Shown piece by piece: positions 31,486-35,476 of a DNA stretch of 42,476 nucleotides. Both the position numbers and the translations under genes were made by a program. A model generated the notes under the pieces. That model saw only the letters and a list, made by a program, of their open reading frames with translations, did not search any database and was not told the DNA's origin. The stretch is taken from IMG/VR virus record IMGVR_UViG_3300044701_004917, positions 1 through 42,476 of that record; one strand, given 5' to 3'. The first letter of the stretch is position 1. Each line of letters starts with the position of its first letter. Origin of the DNA: a virus.

Positions 31486-31736
31486 CGTGGTTTAACGGCG
31501 TTTTGTGGATGGACCACCTCTCGCTGAAATTTGCGGAGCAATCCGCGCTGCGCATGGTGGATAGCTGCACCGACCTCGAGCAGCTCAAGGCTCTGACCCG
31601 CAGCCTGGTCAGCGGACATTTCGAGGCCAAAGCCCTGATCTGCCTGCTGATGGAGCAACAGCTCGCGGCAATGACCCGAGATCGGTGTGAAGGGTGCCCG
31701 TCCGTTTTCGGAATTGATCAGGCGCCAGCAAGCTGA
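31479..31736 (+). CDS. Small helical protein, divergent from the polymerase
   Basis: An 85-residue protein from ATG 31479, on the strand opposite its neighbours. It is helical: SLKFAEQSALRMVDSCTDLEQLKALTRSLVSGHFEAKALICLLMEQQLAAM, then a tail with two Cys (RCEGCPS). The start codon lies inside the beginning of the polymerase gene on the other strand (7 bases shared), and the end overlaps the 3' end of the KilA-N gene by 19 bases. It fills an otherwise empty 230-base gap. Its function is unknown; regulation in trans or by antisense RNA is possible. Confidence 0.58.
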   Translation: MASWFNGVLWMDHLSLKFAEQSALRMVDSCTDLEQLKALTRSLVSGHFEAKALICLLMEQQLAAMTRDRCEGCPSVFGIDQAPAS

Positions 31737-32491
31737 GACTTGAAGCGGCGCAGCGTCTCAACCAGCCAAGTACGGCGATAGCTCTTGACCTGACGAGGAG
31801 CGCCGTCGACAAACTGCTGGCGGGTCGGGGGCTCTTCGCCGAAGTCCTCGCGGTAGGCGTTCGCCACCAGGATCCCTGCGGAGCGGTACTTGGTCCGGGG
31901 CAGCACCTCTTGGAACACCTCCATCCAGGCGTCGCTCAGCGTCAGCTCGTCCTCGCCAACCAGAGCCGGGACTGAACCCGAGCTCGCGGAGAGCACGTTG
32001 CTGCGCACGATGTCCTTGAACAGCAGCTCATCGCGCTGGTCCATCCCACCGAGCTTCTCGAACAGAGCCACGCTCCGCTCCACGAGGGCGACGACCTCGG
32101 CTGCTCCCAGACGCGGAGCATCCACAACCGCAGGTGCCGGAGCACCCTGGACGGACTCCAAAAACCAGCCGTCCATCCACACGGCGAACGGCGCGCTGAT
32201 CCACCGAGCCAGGTCAACAGCGACTTGGGGATGAACCCAAGTGCCACGCCCATCGTTCGGGCCAGTGGTGATCGAGGTGAAAAGGCGGTCGGTCGTAATT
32301 CCGACCGACCCCTCCAAAGCGTCCAGATACTTGTGGCAGCGGTCGGTCTCGAAGTAGTGCTTCCACTCCTTGCCGTTCGCCCGGCACATGGCCGTGGCGT
32401 TGACGAAGCCGTCAGTGGTCCGGCGGCTGATCGGGGTCCCGTTCCAGGACCGCGACACCAGCTTGTTGTTATCCATCGAGAAGAAAGACAT
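31718..32491 (-). CDS. KilA-N domain protein (phage regulator)
   Basis: A 257-residue protein. The N-terminal 115 residues match the KilA-N DNA-binding fold: SRSWNGTPISRRTTDGFVNATAMCRANGKEWKHYFETDRCHKYLDAL, then GTWVHPQVAVDLARWISAPFAVWMDGWFLE. The C-terminal half (about residues 130-257) is helical and ends with RKVKSYRRTW-type basic residues. Such proteins are phage antirepressors or regulators. It sits between the polymerase and primase genes in a leftward order and has a leader with three inverted repeats, consistent with its being controlled itself. Confidence 0.85.
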   Translation of the reverse strand: MSFFSMDNNKLVSRSWNGTPISRRTTDGFVNATAMCRANGKEWKHYFETDRCHKYLDALEGSVGITTDRLFTSITTGPNDGRGTWVHPQVAVDLARWISAPFAVWMDGWFLESVQGAPAPAVVDAPRLGAAEVVALVERSVALFEKLGGMDQRDELLFKDIVRSNVLSASSGSVPALVGEDELTLSDAWMEVFQEVLPRTKYRSAGILVANAYREDFGEEPPTRQQFVDGAPRQVKSYRRTWLVETLRRFKSQLAGA

Positions 32492-32668: not shown

Positions 32669-35476
32669 TCAGCCAGCCCTAAACCCAGCGTCGAACTCGT
32701 CCCAGTCGACGGCGACCTCGGGCATCGGCTCCTGCTGCCATGCCGCCGGCGACGCCTCCGAGGTCGGTTTGGGGTGACTGATTTCCCCCAAATCCCGGAT
32801 TTCCGGCAGCTCGTCGGCCGCCTGGGTGTCGTCCTCGGGGGCCCTTATACCGAGTGTGGGCGTGTCCATTGTCCATCGTTCCTCGAGATCGCCCTCGGGG
32901 ACTGGGTTTGAACGATGGACACTCGTTCCGGATTTGGTTGGTTGTCCATCGTTATTCGGAATGGGTTGCACCGCCTCAGAACGATGGACATCATCCCCTG
33001 CCGCCGAGCTCGTGTCCATCGTTCCTTCGTTCTCCTGCAATCGATCTCGGGGAACGATGGACAAAAGACCCTCCGTAGCAGGCAACGCACGCGCGCGAGA
33101 GGGAGGGAGTGTGTAGGAAGAGACCGGAGTTTTTGCCCCACCCACCGAGAGCGGTTTGCCCTGAACCAGAACGCCGTCGTCCACCCACCGTTCGAGCCAA
33201 CGCTTTACGGTCCGGCTCGAGGGCGCCTTCCGGCCTTGCCCGGTGATCTCCCCGACCAACGACTCCCAGACCTGCTTCGAGGTCAGACGGTCCACGAGGT
33301 CGCCACCATCCGCACCCCGGGCCTTGAGGACGTGGTCTTTCACGATCCGCAGCGCCATGGTGTGGGGCTCTGGATCCCCCTGGCCCATGTCCTCCCGCCG
33401 CTCGGTCGGGGTGTAGTCCCATACCGAGTACGCGAAGTCGTGGTCCCGCTCCACCACCAGCAGGTCGCCCTGACGCCCGAGCCTGGACTTCTTGATCTGG
33501 ATCATCCGGCAGCTCGACGGCACGCGCCCCCGCTCACGCAGCGCCTCACGCTCATCCTCCGAGAGCGTCCTCAGGTGCCACTGCTCATCCACAGCGGCGA
33601 TGAGGTAGCGCGTACCCCGCGCATCACCGTTGGCGTTGTCGTGGTGAATCCAGATGATCGAGGTCGCGGGAAACCCTGAATCCGCCGGATCGCCGTTCTT
33701 CTCGGCGTAGTAGTAGAAGGGCGACGCGAACGCCTTGTCCTTCTCCTCGACCTGCATCTTGGTGCTGCAGGAGCCGATGGAGTCGACGACCACGAGTGCG
33801 GGCTTGTACTCCTTGATCCACTGCCCAAACTCATGGGTGTGGTTGATCTGGAAGCCGCGCTTGACGATGAACCACCGGTCCTTGGCCGGGTCGATCCCGT
33901 TGTCCTCGCAGTCCCGCAGCAGCTTCGCTGGGTTCTGGTCGTTCTGAATCCAGAGCACCGGGCCCTGCTTCACCGGCAACTCGATGCCGCGAATCCGCAT
34001 CGTTTCACCGCGTCCGACGACCTTGGCCAGGCCCATGCAGGCCGACGTCTTCCCGAGGCCGCCAGCCGCATGCAGCATCACCTGGGTCGGCCGCATCAAC
34101 AGGTTCGGCACCAGGAACTGCATCTGCTCGACGTCCTGCCACCACTCCTTCTTCTGGTTGTTGCGACGGCTGTCCTCGTAGTAGCGGTACTCATCCATGG
34201 CAGCCAGACACTGCTGCCCGGTCAGACGGCGCCCCGTCTCCGCCGCCAGCCCCGCCATCCGGCCCATCCGGATCGCCGGGTTCAGCTCCTCGTCGTGGAT
34301 CTTGATCAGCGCCTCGTGGAACTGGCGCTCATCCATCACCAGGCGCGGCGCCTCCTTGGTGATCTGCGCCCGCGCATCCTCTGGGTAGTTGAAGCCGAGC
34401 TTGGTAGTGATCTCCGCGACGTACCGCTCCAGGTCCGGGCCCTGAGGACGCTCGGCGTAGAGGTCATTGACCGTGACCTTGTGAACGAAGTCGAGGACGT
34501 CGCCACCAACCCCGCACGCCTTGCAATCCCAACAGCCCGACTCAGCCGAGTACTGGAAGCTGGTGCCTGACTGCCCGCCATGCCATGGGCATCCGGACAT
34601 CATCTGGGGCTTGTTGCCACCCCGCTCCTTCCACCCGTACTTGTCGAAGACCGGGTGGTTGAAGACCAGATCATCCAACCGAGGCCGCAGCAGGCGCTGG
34701 ACCTCCTCCTTGAAGAACCAGCCCCGAATCTGCCGTGACGGAATCGCCGTCTCCCCGAGCTCGGCATCCAGCGCCTTTTGGTCGGCATCGCTCAACCACT
34801 GCACCGGTTTACGGTGGTCCCGCAGGACATCGAGCACCCAATCCGGTGCCGGCGCAACCTTCGCTTCGTTGTAGTTCAACCAGCGATACGGCTTCCCTGT
34901 GTCGGGGTGGGGTGAGCCCGGCACCACGCTCTGGCACTGGTTGAAGCGCAGCACCACCTCCTCGTATTGAGGTGCCTCGCTCGCCTCGGCCTTCCCGGCC
35001 TGACGTTCGACATCGCTGTGCCCCAGGTGCCAACTGCCGTCAGCACGGAGGATCAGCGTCTTGACGTGCCGGAGCTCGGGGACAATCGAGGGCGGCACCC
35101 GGTACAGCAGTTGCCGACGCCCCGGCTTCCCCGACGTCCACGACATCGTGCGCTCTTCCCCGAGCGCGTCGTAGTCCTCGCCAGCGGCATCCTTGTATCG
35201 GCCGTCCGCCTCCGGCCCATCAATATCCAGAGCGATCAGGCCCCCCGAGAACTCCCCGGTGACAACACCGAGGCCGGCGTAGGCCCTGTTCGTCTTGTAG
35301 GCATCGATGCAGAGCTCCCGGGTCAGGGGCTTGGTGCTCCACTCCTTGACGAAGGTCGCCTTCCCTGCCACGGGGACAAAGGTCCACCACTCGGGGAAAA
35401 CACCCTCCCGCAAAAGATCGATGGCGCGCTTCCCCTTGTCCGGGGACGCACCGCTTGCAGCTGGAACAGCAGTCAT
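32669..35476 (-). CDS. Prim-pol / zinc / RecA-type helicase (replicative primase-helicase)
   Basis: A 935-residue protein. Residues about 20-200 form an AEP-type prim-pol domain (WSTKPLTRELCIDAYKTN, ALDIDGPEAD, PGRRQLLYRVP). Near 295-320 there is a zinc site, CPWHGG...CWDCKACGVGG. Around 470 there is a RecA-like ATPase with Walker A AAGGLGKTS and Walker B ALVVVDSIGS. A winged-helix-like part follows (KQVWESLVGEITG...SRTVKRWLERWVDDG). The last 130 residues are a disordered, acidic tail whose DNA carries six copies of a 10-mer in alternating orientation (32871-33062). It would unwind and prime DNA for the family A polymerase. Confidence 0.93.
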   Translation of the reverse strand: MTAVPAASGASPDKGKRAIDLLREGVFPEWWTFVPVAGKATFVKEWSTKPLTRELCIDAYKTNRAYAGLGVVTGEFSGGLIALDIDGPEADGRYKDAAGEDYDALGEERTMSWTSGKPGRRQLLYRVPPSIVPELRHVKTLILRADGSWHLGHSDVERQAGKAEASEAPQYEEVVLRFNQCQSVVPGSPHPDTGKPYRWLNYNEAKVAPAPDWVLDVLRDHRKPVQWLSDADQKALDAELGETAIPSRQIRGWFFKEEVQRLLRPRLDDLVFNHPVFDKYGWKERGGNKPQMMSGCPWHGGQSGTSFQYSAESGCWDCKACGVGGDVLDFVHKVTVNDLYAERPQGPDLERYVAEITTKLGFNYPEDARAQITKEAPRLVMDERQFHEALIKIHDEELNPAIRMGRMAGLAAETGRRLTGQQCLAAMDEYRYYEDSRRNNQKKEWWQDVEQMQFLVPNLLMRPTQVMLHAAGGLGKTSACMGLAKVVGRGETMRIRGIELPVKQGPVLWIQNDQNPAKLLRDCEDNGIDPAKDRWFIVKRGFQINHTHEFGQWIKEYKPALVVVDSIGSCSTKMQVEEKDKAFASPFYYYAEKNGDPADSGFPATSIIWIHHDNANGDARGTRYLIAAVDEQWHLRTLSEDEREALRERGRVPSSCRMIQIKKSRLGRQGDLLVVERDHDFAYSVWDYTPTERREDMGQGDPEPHTMALRIVKDHVLKARGADGGDLVDRLTSKQVWESLVGEITGQGRKAPSSRTVKRWLERWVDDGVLVQGKPLSVGGAKTPVSSYTLPPSRARALPATEGLLSIVPRDRLQENEGTMDTSSAAGDDVHRSEAVQPIPNNDGQPTKSGTSVHRSNPVPEGDLEERWTMDTPTLGIRAPEDDTQAADELPEIRDLGEISHPKPTSEASPAAWQQEPMPEVAVDWDEFDAGFRAG
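32871..33062. repeat. Six alternating inverted 10-mers, candidate replication origin
   Basis: GTCCATCGTT occurs forward at 32871, 32944 and 33014, and as AACGATGGAC at 32911, 32980 and 33053. Three inverted pairs have gaps of 30, 26 and 29 bases. Arms extend to 11-13 bases within each pair. On the coding strand the six copies are read in different frames as SIV, TMD, VHR, NDG, VHR and RWT, so the conservation is of DNA, not protein. An additional partial copy (GTCCAT) precedes the first. Confidence 0.85.

Follow-up and report, generated by a model that had tools for sequence, protein, structure and literature searches.

A probable replication origin inside a cyanophage primase-helicase gene, with repeats that covary with the winged helix of the encoded protein

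In phage lambda, the origin repeats sit inside gene O, whose product binds them, and extra lambda origins arrest lambda (PMC4488673). The alpha protein of phage P4 combines a primase, a helicase and a winged-helix origin-binding domain in one polypeptide and acts on short repeats, while ORF904 of plasmid pRN1 combines a Prim-Pol, an SF3 helicase and a C-terminal winged helix-turn-helix domain (wHTH), with an origin just 3′ of the gene whose recognition motifs, according to the cited passages, have not been identified (PMC4234260). In the PLE satellites, the RepA_N initiator domains covary with the origin iterons and swap as modules, the cognate pairing has been established experimentally, and the origin-directed nuclease Odn may select for diversification (PMC8263062).

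The window analysed here, the whole 42,476-base stretch of one virus record, encodes a 935-residue protein with the Pfam domains Prim-Pol, CHC2-type zinc ribbon and RecA-like AAA_25. The neighbouring genes encode a KilA-N protein, DNA polymerase A, a tyrosine integrase, an Xis-like protein, an exonuclease and tail proteins, and the record is therefore most likely that of a temperate tailed phage. The AlphaFold2 model (mean pLDDT 78) places a wHTH at residues 691–793, with its helix and wing where the variable residues sit. Foldseek matches to the wHTH model are winged helices, including DNA-bound wHTHs of replication proteins; the top match is the B. subtilis replication terminator protein (RTP; E 1e-3, TM 0.57, 23% identity), with generic wHTHs close behind, and a PDB sequence search with the wHTH alignment found no significant relative. 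Directly after the wHTH, the codons of a low-complexity tail contain an array of short repeats, which they presumably tolerate because the tail is of low complexity. The main features are as follows.

Positions 32669–35476, minus strand: replication protein of 935 aa (Prim-Pol, CHC2 zinc ribbon, RecA-like AAA_25 helicase, wHTH), whose tail codons hold the array
Positions 33098–33406, minus strand: C-terminal winged helix, residues 691–793, proposed reader of the array (AlphaFold2, Foldseek, covariation)
Positions 33197–33223, minus strand: recognition-helix residues 752–760 (PSSRTVKRW), which track the 5′ half TGTCC
Positions 33113–33166, minus strand: wing residues 771–788, which track the 3′ half ATCGTT
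Positions 32870–32880, plus strand: array site 1, TGTCCATCGTT, an outer site
Positions 32911–32921, minus strand: array site 2, TGTCCATCGTT
Positions 32943–32953, plus strand: array site 3, TGTCCATCGTT
Positions 32980–32990, minus strand: array site 4, TGTCCATCGTT
Positions 33013–33023, plus strand: array site 5, TGTCCATCGTT
Positions 33053–33063, minus strand: array site 6, TGTCCATCGTT, an outer site

The array consists of six exact copies of an 11-mer in strictly alternating orientation (F R F R F R), with successive sites 41-32-37-33-40 bases apart, resulting in a grid that is nearly mirror-symmetric. An earlier note on the window had reported six alternating 10-mers at 32862–33062, with gaps of 30, 26 and 29 bases within pairs and a unit spacing of about 71 bases. 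The copies (10-mer starts 32871, 32911, 32944, 32980, 33014 and 33053), their order, the gaps and the spacing (73 and 70 bases between forward copies, 69 and 73 between reverse copies) were all reproduced, whereas the extent had to be revised, since the core is one base longer in 6/6 copies, the true span is 32870–33063, and a half-site lies at 32863. In 60 dinucleotide shuffles of the window, the maximum number of copies of any 10-mer within 220 bases is 3, and the array word has no exact copy elsewhere in the 42,476-base record. Of the features typical of iterons, a single cluster of several short identical repeats is present and same-strand (direct) repeats are absent. The copies are read in different frames as SIV, TMD, VHR, NDG, VHR and RWT, the five different peptides described earlier. 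A protein-level repeat was rejected on the basis of these frames and peptides and of the intergenic arrays of two relatives (L037 and L205), and a mobile repeat family was rejected because exact copies are lacking elsewhere in the record and relatives carry different words.

As a putative origin, the array would function much as lambda O/ori, P4 alpha and pRN1 do; it shares defining features with each of these, and with PLE, but lacks at least one of each and so is a member of none. As in lambda, the repeats lie within the initiator gene (here 32870–33063 within 32669–35476, as a putative origin). Lambda, however, has four 19-bp repeats beside an AT-rich segment instead of six alternating 11-bp sites, and its O protein, which lacks a helicase and primase of its own, uses its N-terminal half for binding and brings in the helicase of the host, whereas here a C-terminal wHTH would bind, and Prim-Pol, CHC2 zinc ribbon and AAA_25 are in the same polypeptide. 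P4 alpha likewise unites primase, helicase and wHTH in one polypeptide, but by its description has a Toprim primase, as opposed to the Prim-Pol and RecA-like AAA_25 found here, and the repeats of the window, unlike those of P4, are inside the gene. The P4 alpha helicase belongs to SF3. As far as the cited passages go, pRN1 shares a Prim-Pol initiator with a C-terminal wHTH, an origin (here putative) at the 3′ side of the gene and dyad symmetry, but differs in a stem-loop origin without iterons and in an SF3 helicase in place of AAA_25, and those passages report no covariation between an origin word and the wHTH. The PLE RepA/ori of Vibrio cholerae phage satellites is similar in that the initiator DNA-binding domain covaries with the origin repeats and modules are swapped, but has a RepA_N initiator, an intergenic origin and two replicon types, as compared with about 20 words here, resolved to helix and wing. 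The isolated Synechococcus phage S-LBS1 (MG271909) encodes a Prim-Pol domain homologous to the present one (33% identity), and a dense CTGCCTAACCT cluster comes directly after the gene, but the repeat is different, outside the gene and partly tandem, and only the N-terminal domain aligns. At 34240–34641 of S-LBS1 (8241–8642 of L209), at the end of the published record, dense CTGCCTAACCT/CTGCCCAACCT repeats are accompanied by a direct repeat of about 250 bases.

The first viral scan identified 73 loci, and later scans added more; words were assigned by scanning and by visual inspection, and, as many loci duplicate a contig already in the set, statistics were calculated on distinct units only. 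Single-protein scans with L203 and L068 yielded only three new contigs. Relatives found in bacterial assemblies come from Vulcanococcus, Synechococcus and Cyanobium. Nearly all relatives with a complete 3′ end carry an array at the equivalent position and on a similar grid. All sites within one genome share one word, but about 20 different words occur among the relatives, including TGTCCATTGCT, TGTCCGTTCAT, TGTCCTTTGCT, TGTCCGAACC, TGTCCGCACC, TGTCCAAAACC, TGACCAAAACC, TGAGCAAAACC, TGTCCGTAAAT, TGTCGTTAAAT, TGATAATTCTT, TGTCCCTCGTT, TGTCGCTCGTT and TGTCCCTATAT, and even within one clade the grid is constant while the word differs between genomes. The earlier statement that DNA, not protein, is conserved can thus be made more strongly: although phages differ in the exact 10-mer, the grid, the identity of sites within a genome and the match to the wHTH are conserved. 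The array straddles the stop codon in L201 and lies 85–300 bases past it in L037 (grid 42-30-28-30-43) and L205 (42-31-37-31-42), and four loci (L012, L022, L095 and L149) have degenerate arrays. A CCCCGAG repeat considered as the word of L022 and L095 was rejected as a chance repeat, manual listing giving degenerate TGTCC sites. In L200, the Prim-Pol frame ends early (an apparent frameshift or sequencing error), but past the stop the array persists and carries the word predicted by the wing of L200 (GTTCAT). TGTCCCC repeats near the gene end of two distant helicase relatives (L196 and L198, about 29% identity) are possibly a further branch of the same arrangement. The same scan found no array in L267, a relative with about 50% identity, and no comparable array is present at the gene 3′ end of four remote cyanobacterial plasmid relatives (L311–L314), whose matches cover 21–40% of the query, mostly the Prim-Pol domain; the trait therefore does not look general to Prim-Pol replicons.

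Further motifs accompany the array.

Positions 32863–32869, plus strand: half-site TGTCCAT, 7 bp outside site 1
Positions 32884–32891, plus strand: CGAGATCG, flanking outer site 1 on its inner side
Positions 33042–33049, minus strand: mirror copy of CGAGATCG (CGATCTCG on the plus strand) on the inner side of outer site 6
Positions 33083–33091, minus strand: CGTGCGTTG, the only copy in the window

Comparable half-sites are located about 7 bases outside the outer sites in L203, L201, L202 and L027, and that of L203 follows the changed word (GTCGCTTGTCGC). The distance from CGTGCGTTG to the first site, in coding orientation, is exactly 28 bases in the window, L015, L027, L037 and L205. This offset recurs in many relatives, including those with non-coding arrays, and CGTGCGTTG remains constant while the word changes. 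It may be bound by an invariant part of the initiator or by a host factor. The mirror CGAGATCG flank is also present in the non-coding array of L037, and the CGTGCGTTG offset and CGAGATCG-like flanks inside the outer sites are common to coding and non-coding arrays, indicating that RARAL and PVPEGDL, two conserved peptides of the tail, reflect at least in part the conservation of DNA motifs.

Across the relatives, the array word follows the wHTH of the same protein. Wings of the type [ASV]K.PV occur with the 3′ half ATCGTT, [AS]DKPV with xTTGC/xTTCC, GQ[NR][KR]P with GTTCAT, and GGRP with AAAACC, while helices carrying E, D or Q at position 758, or L at position 755, occur with the 5′ halves TGACC, TGAGC, TGTCG or TGAT, not TGTCC; the changed 5′ half of L207 (TTTCC) falls outside the helix rule. 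In partial Mantel tests on 43 distinct units, controlled for the distance of the rest of the protein, and with words, helix and wing limits and traits defined after inspection, the helix correlates with the 5′ half (r = 0.46, p = 0.0004) and the wing with the 3′ half (r = 0.50, p = 0.0002), but the wing does not correlate with the 5′ half (r = −0.08, p = 0.74) nor the helix with the 3′ half (r = −0.05, p = 0.84). The sequences thus present a double dissociation, in which the recognition helix tracks the 5′ half and the wing tracks the 3′ half. The 3′ half is also correlated with the wHTH segment that precedes the recognition helix (r = 0.50), as linkage would lead one to expect. The wing is therefore singled out by the natural pairs and not by the Mantel statistics alone. 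In L055 and L057, the helix and 5′ half are identical, while the wing and 3′ half differ. Conversely, in L201 and L203, from one Vulcanococcus strain, the wing type and 3′ half (CTCGTT) are the same, while the helix and 5′ half read SKKSVRRW/TGTCC versus SRRTVERW/TGTCG.

The array is adjacent to the wHTH, and co-transfer by recombination inflates their association; the same wing-word pair nevertheless recurs on distant branches amid different surrounding residues. On a tree built from the protein body with the wHTH removed, the first four letters of the 3′ half changed at least 25 times, and phylogenetically independent pairs for five trait pairs are concordant in 7/7, 6/6, 3/3, 3/3 and 5/5 cases (24/24, none contrary). 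To guard against post hoc traits, a prediction for L294 and L296 was fixed beforehand from the protein sequence only: words ending in AACC, with 5′ halves unlike that of L067 and unlike each other. The words read GACACAAACC and GGTAACAAACC, as predicted. Covariation, independent pairs and prediction together match the repeats, indirectly, to the replicon's own initiator, as for iterons, and lend strong support to the primase-helicase, through its own C-terminal wHTH, among the binders proposed earlier.

The same data bear on other readers of the array. A KilA-N/BstA-like neighbour, a phage repressor, a partition protein, or integrase/Xis acting at arm-type attP sites could be the binder, and the KilA-N gene (31718–32491) is separated from the array by about 370 bp and weakly matches the BstA abortive-infection family (phrog_6287). 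In favour of integrase/Xis, short inverted repeats do occur among attP arm sites. The KilA-N gene, an alternative binder in the earlier note, is however sporadic among relatives and missing from most of those that carry arrays, on which basis it was rejected as the binder in a BstA/aba-type system. Integrase/Xis arm sites were rejected because Xis is unchanged where the word changes, being 99% identical between L024 and L036, whose words differ; similarly, L055 and L057 keep about 93–100% identity for 4.5 kb downstream of the gene, yet their wings and arrays differ. We regard any such binder as scarcely credible.

The dyad symmetry of the array raises the question of whether an initiator recognises shape, as would be the case for a pRN1-like structural origin folding as a long nested hairpin. 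The single strand at 32855–33105 indeed folds far better than shuffles (z = −4.7), with nested pairing of sites 1-6, 2-5 and 3-4, and in pRN1, according to the cited passages, a stem-loop located 3′ of the Prim-Pol gene serves as origin (PMC4234260). For a hairpin, however, a match between partner sites would suffice, whereas the same word is found at non-partner sites too; the word also tracks the wHTH; and in the L043–L064 clade the site order +-++-+-, or longer variants, breaks the nesting. Recognition of shape is thus very unlikely.

We consider instead, with a probability of roughly 80%, that the array is the replication origin, that is, the initiator loading site, of a temperate cyanophage, located inside the 3′ end of the gene of its own initiator, and that the same enzyme very probably reads the array to start copying. 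Between the origin and the regulator or partition site that the earlier note had left side by side, the covariation of word and wHTH argues strongly for an origin, although this case is built on comparison of sequences. Against it count the absence of an array from L267 in the scan used and the degenerate arrays of L012, L022, L095 and L149. No AT-rich unwinding element is present near the array, as had been observed earlier (array 44% AT versus 38% for the window; best 40-mer within the array 53%). The GC skew, a check suggested in the same note, does not change sign in the window, and its weak point at 31–33 kb coincides with genes turning strand and is uninformative. DnaA boxes form no cluster in the window and are fewer than expected by chance. 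These results leave room for a control site bound by the wHTH, either one governing copy number or incompatibility, as do P4 crr and the inc iterons of plasmids, or an operator for the downstream polA, with the origin elsewhere; all covariation evidence bears on binding, not initiation, and the array is upstream of polA in most relatives. Yet it is the only such array in each record searched, its six to eight symmetric sites exceed the need of an operator, and the distance to polA varies, up to about 2 kb. A control site is, in our estimation, unlikely.

As an origin, the array could act as follows. One wHTH would bind each 11-bp site, with the recognition helix reading TGTCC and the β-wing reading ATCGTT; the six mirror-symmetric sites would assemble initiator subunits in two groups facing opposite ways; and these subunits would open the duplex, be loaded as helicases for travel in either direction, and make primers for the PolA that the phage encodes in a neighbouring gene.

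Over most of 10 kb, the DNA of L018 matches that of L066 at about 99% identity, but identity is only 61–76% at the wHTH and array, and the two diverge again further on, at the Xis/integrase region. Identity likewise falls at this cassette between L024 and L036 and between L055 and L057. The wHTH and array would thus change together as a single cassette, so that each type of phage would possess a private origin. One Vulcanococcus limneticus assembly contains two elements with related Prim-Pol genes (L201 and L203), whose words differ by one base at every site; the difference would fit, without proving, a need for compatibility. By analogy with lambda, arrest by extra origins is a possible reason for private origins. 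Tentatively, antagonism may keep origins private: relatives up to about 99% identical may repeatedly swap or retune the compact cassette, escaping co-resident relatives, decoy origins or origin-directed nucleases, and the two-part rule (helix for the 5′ half, wing for the 3′ half) may let sites be predicted from the protein.

In the open-access literature, we found no description of such an array for this Prim-Pol protein family. The arrays supply, for a single winged helix, 43 distinct natural pairings of protein and DNA, in or beside one gene, among which near-minimal natural pairs separate the contributions of helix and wing. How an initiator and its origin shift specificity together while replication persists, and what drives origin diversity in phages, become testable questions. 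The carriers are best read as temperate phages of freshwater picocyanobacteria, and the arrays offer candidate origins, possibly representing compatible replicon types, for the temperate phages of freshwater Synechococcus, Cyanobium and Vulcanococcus.
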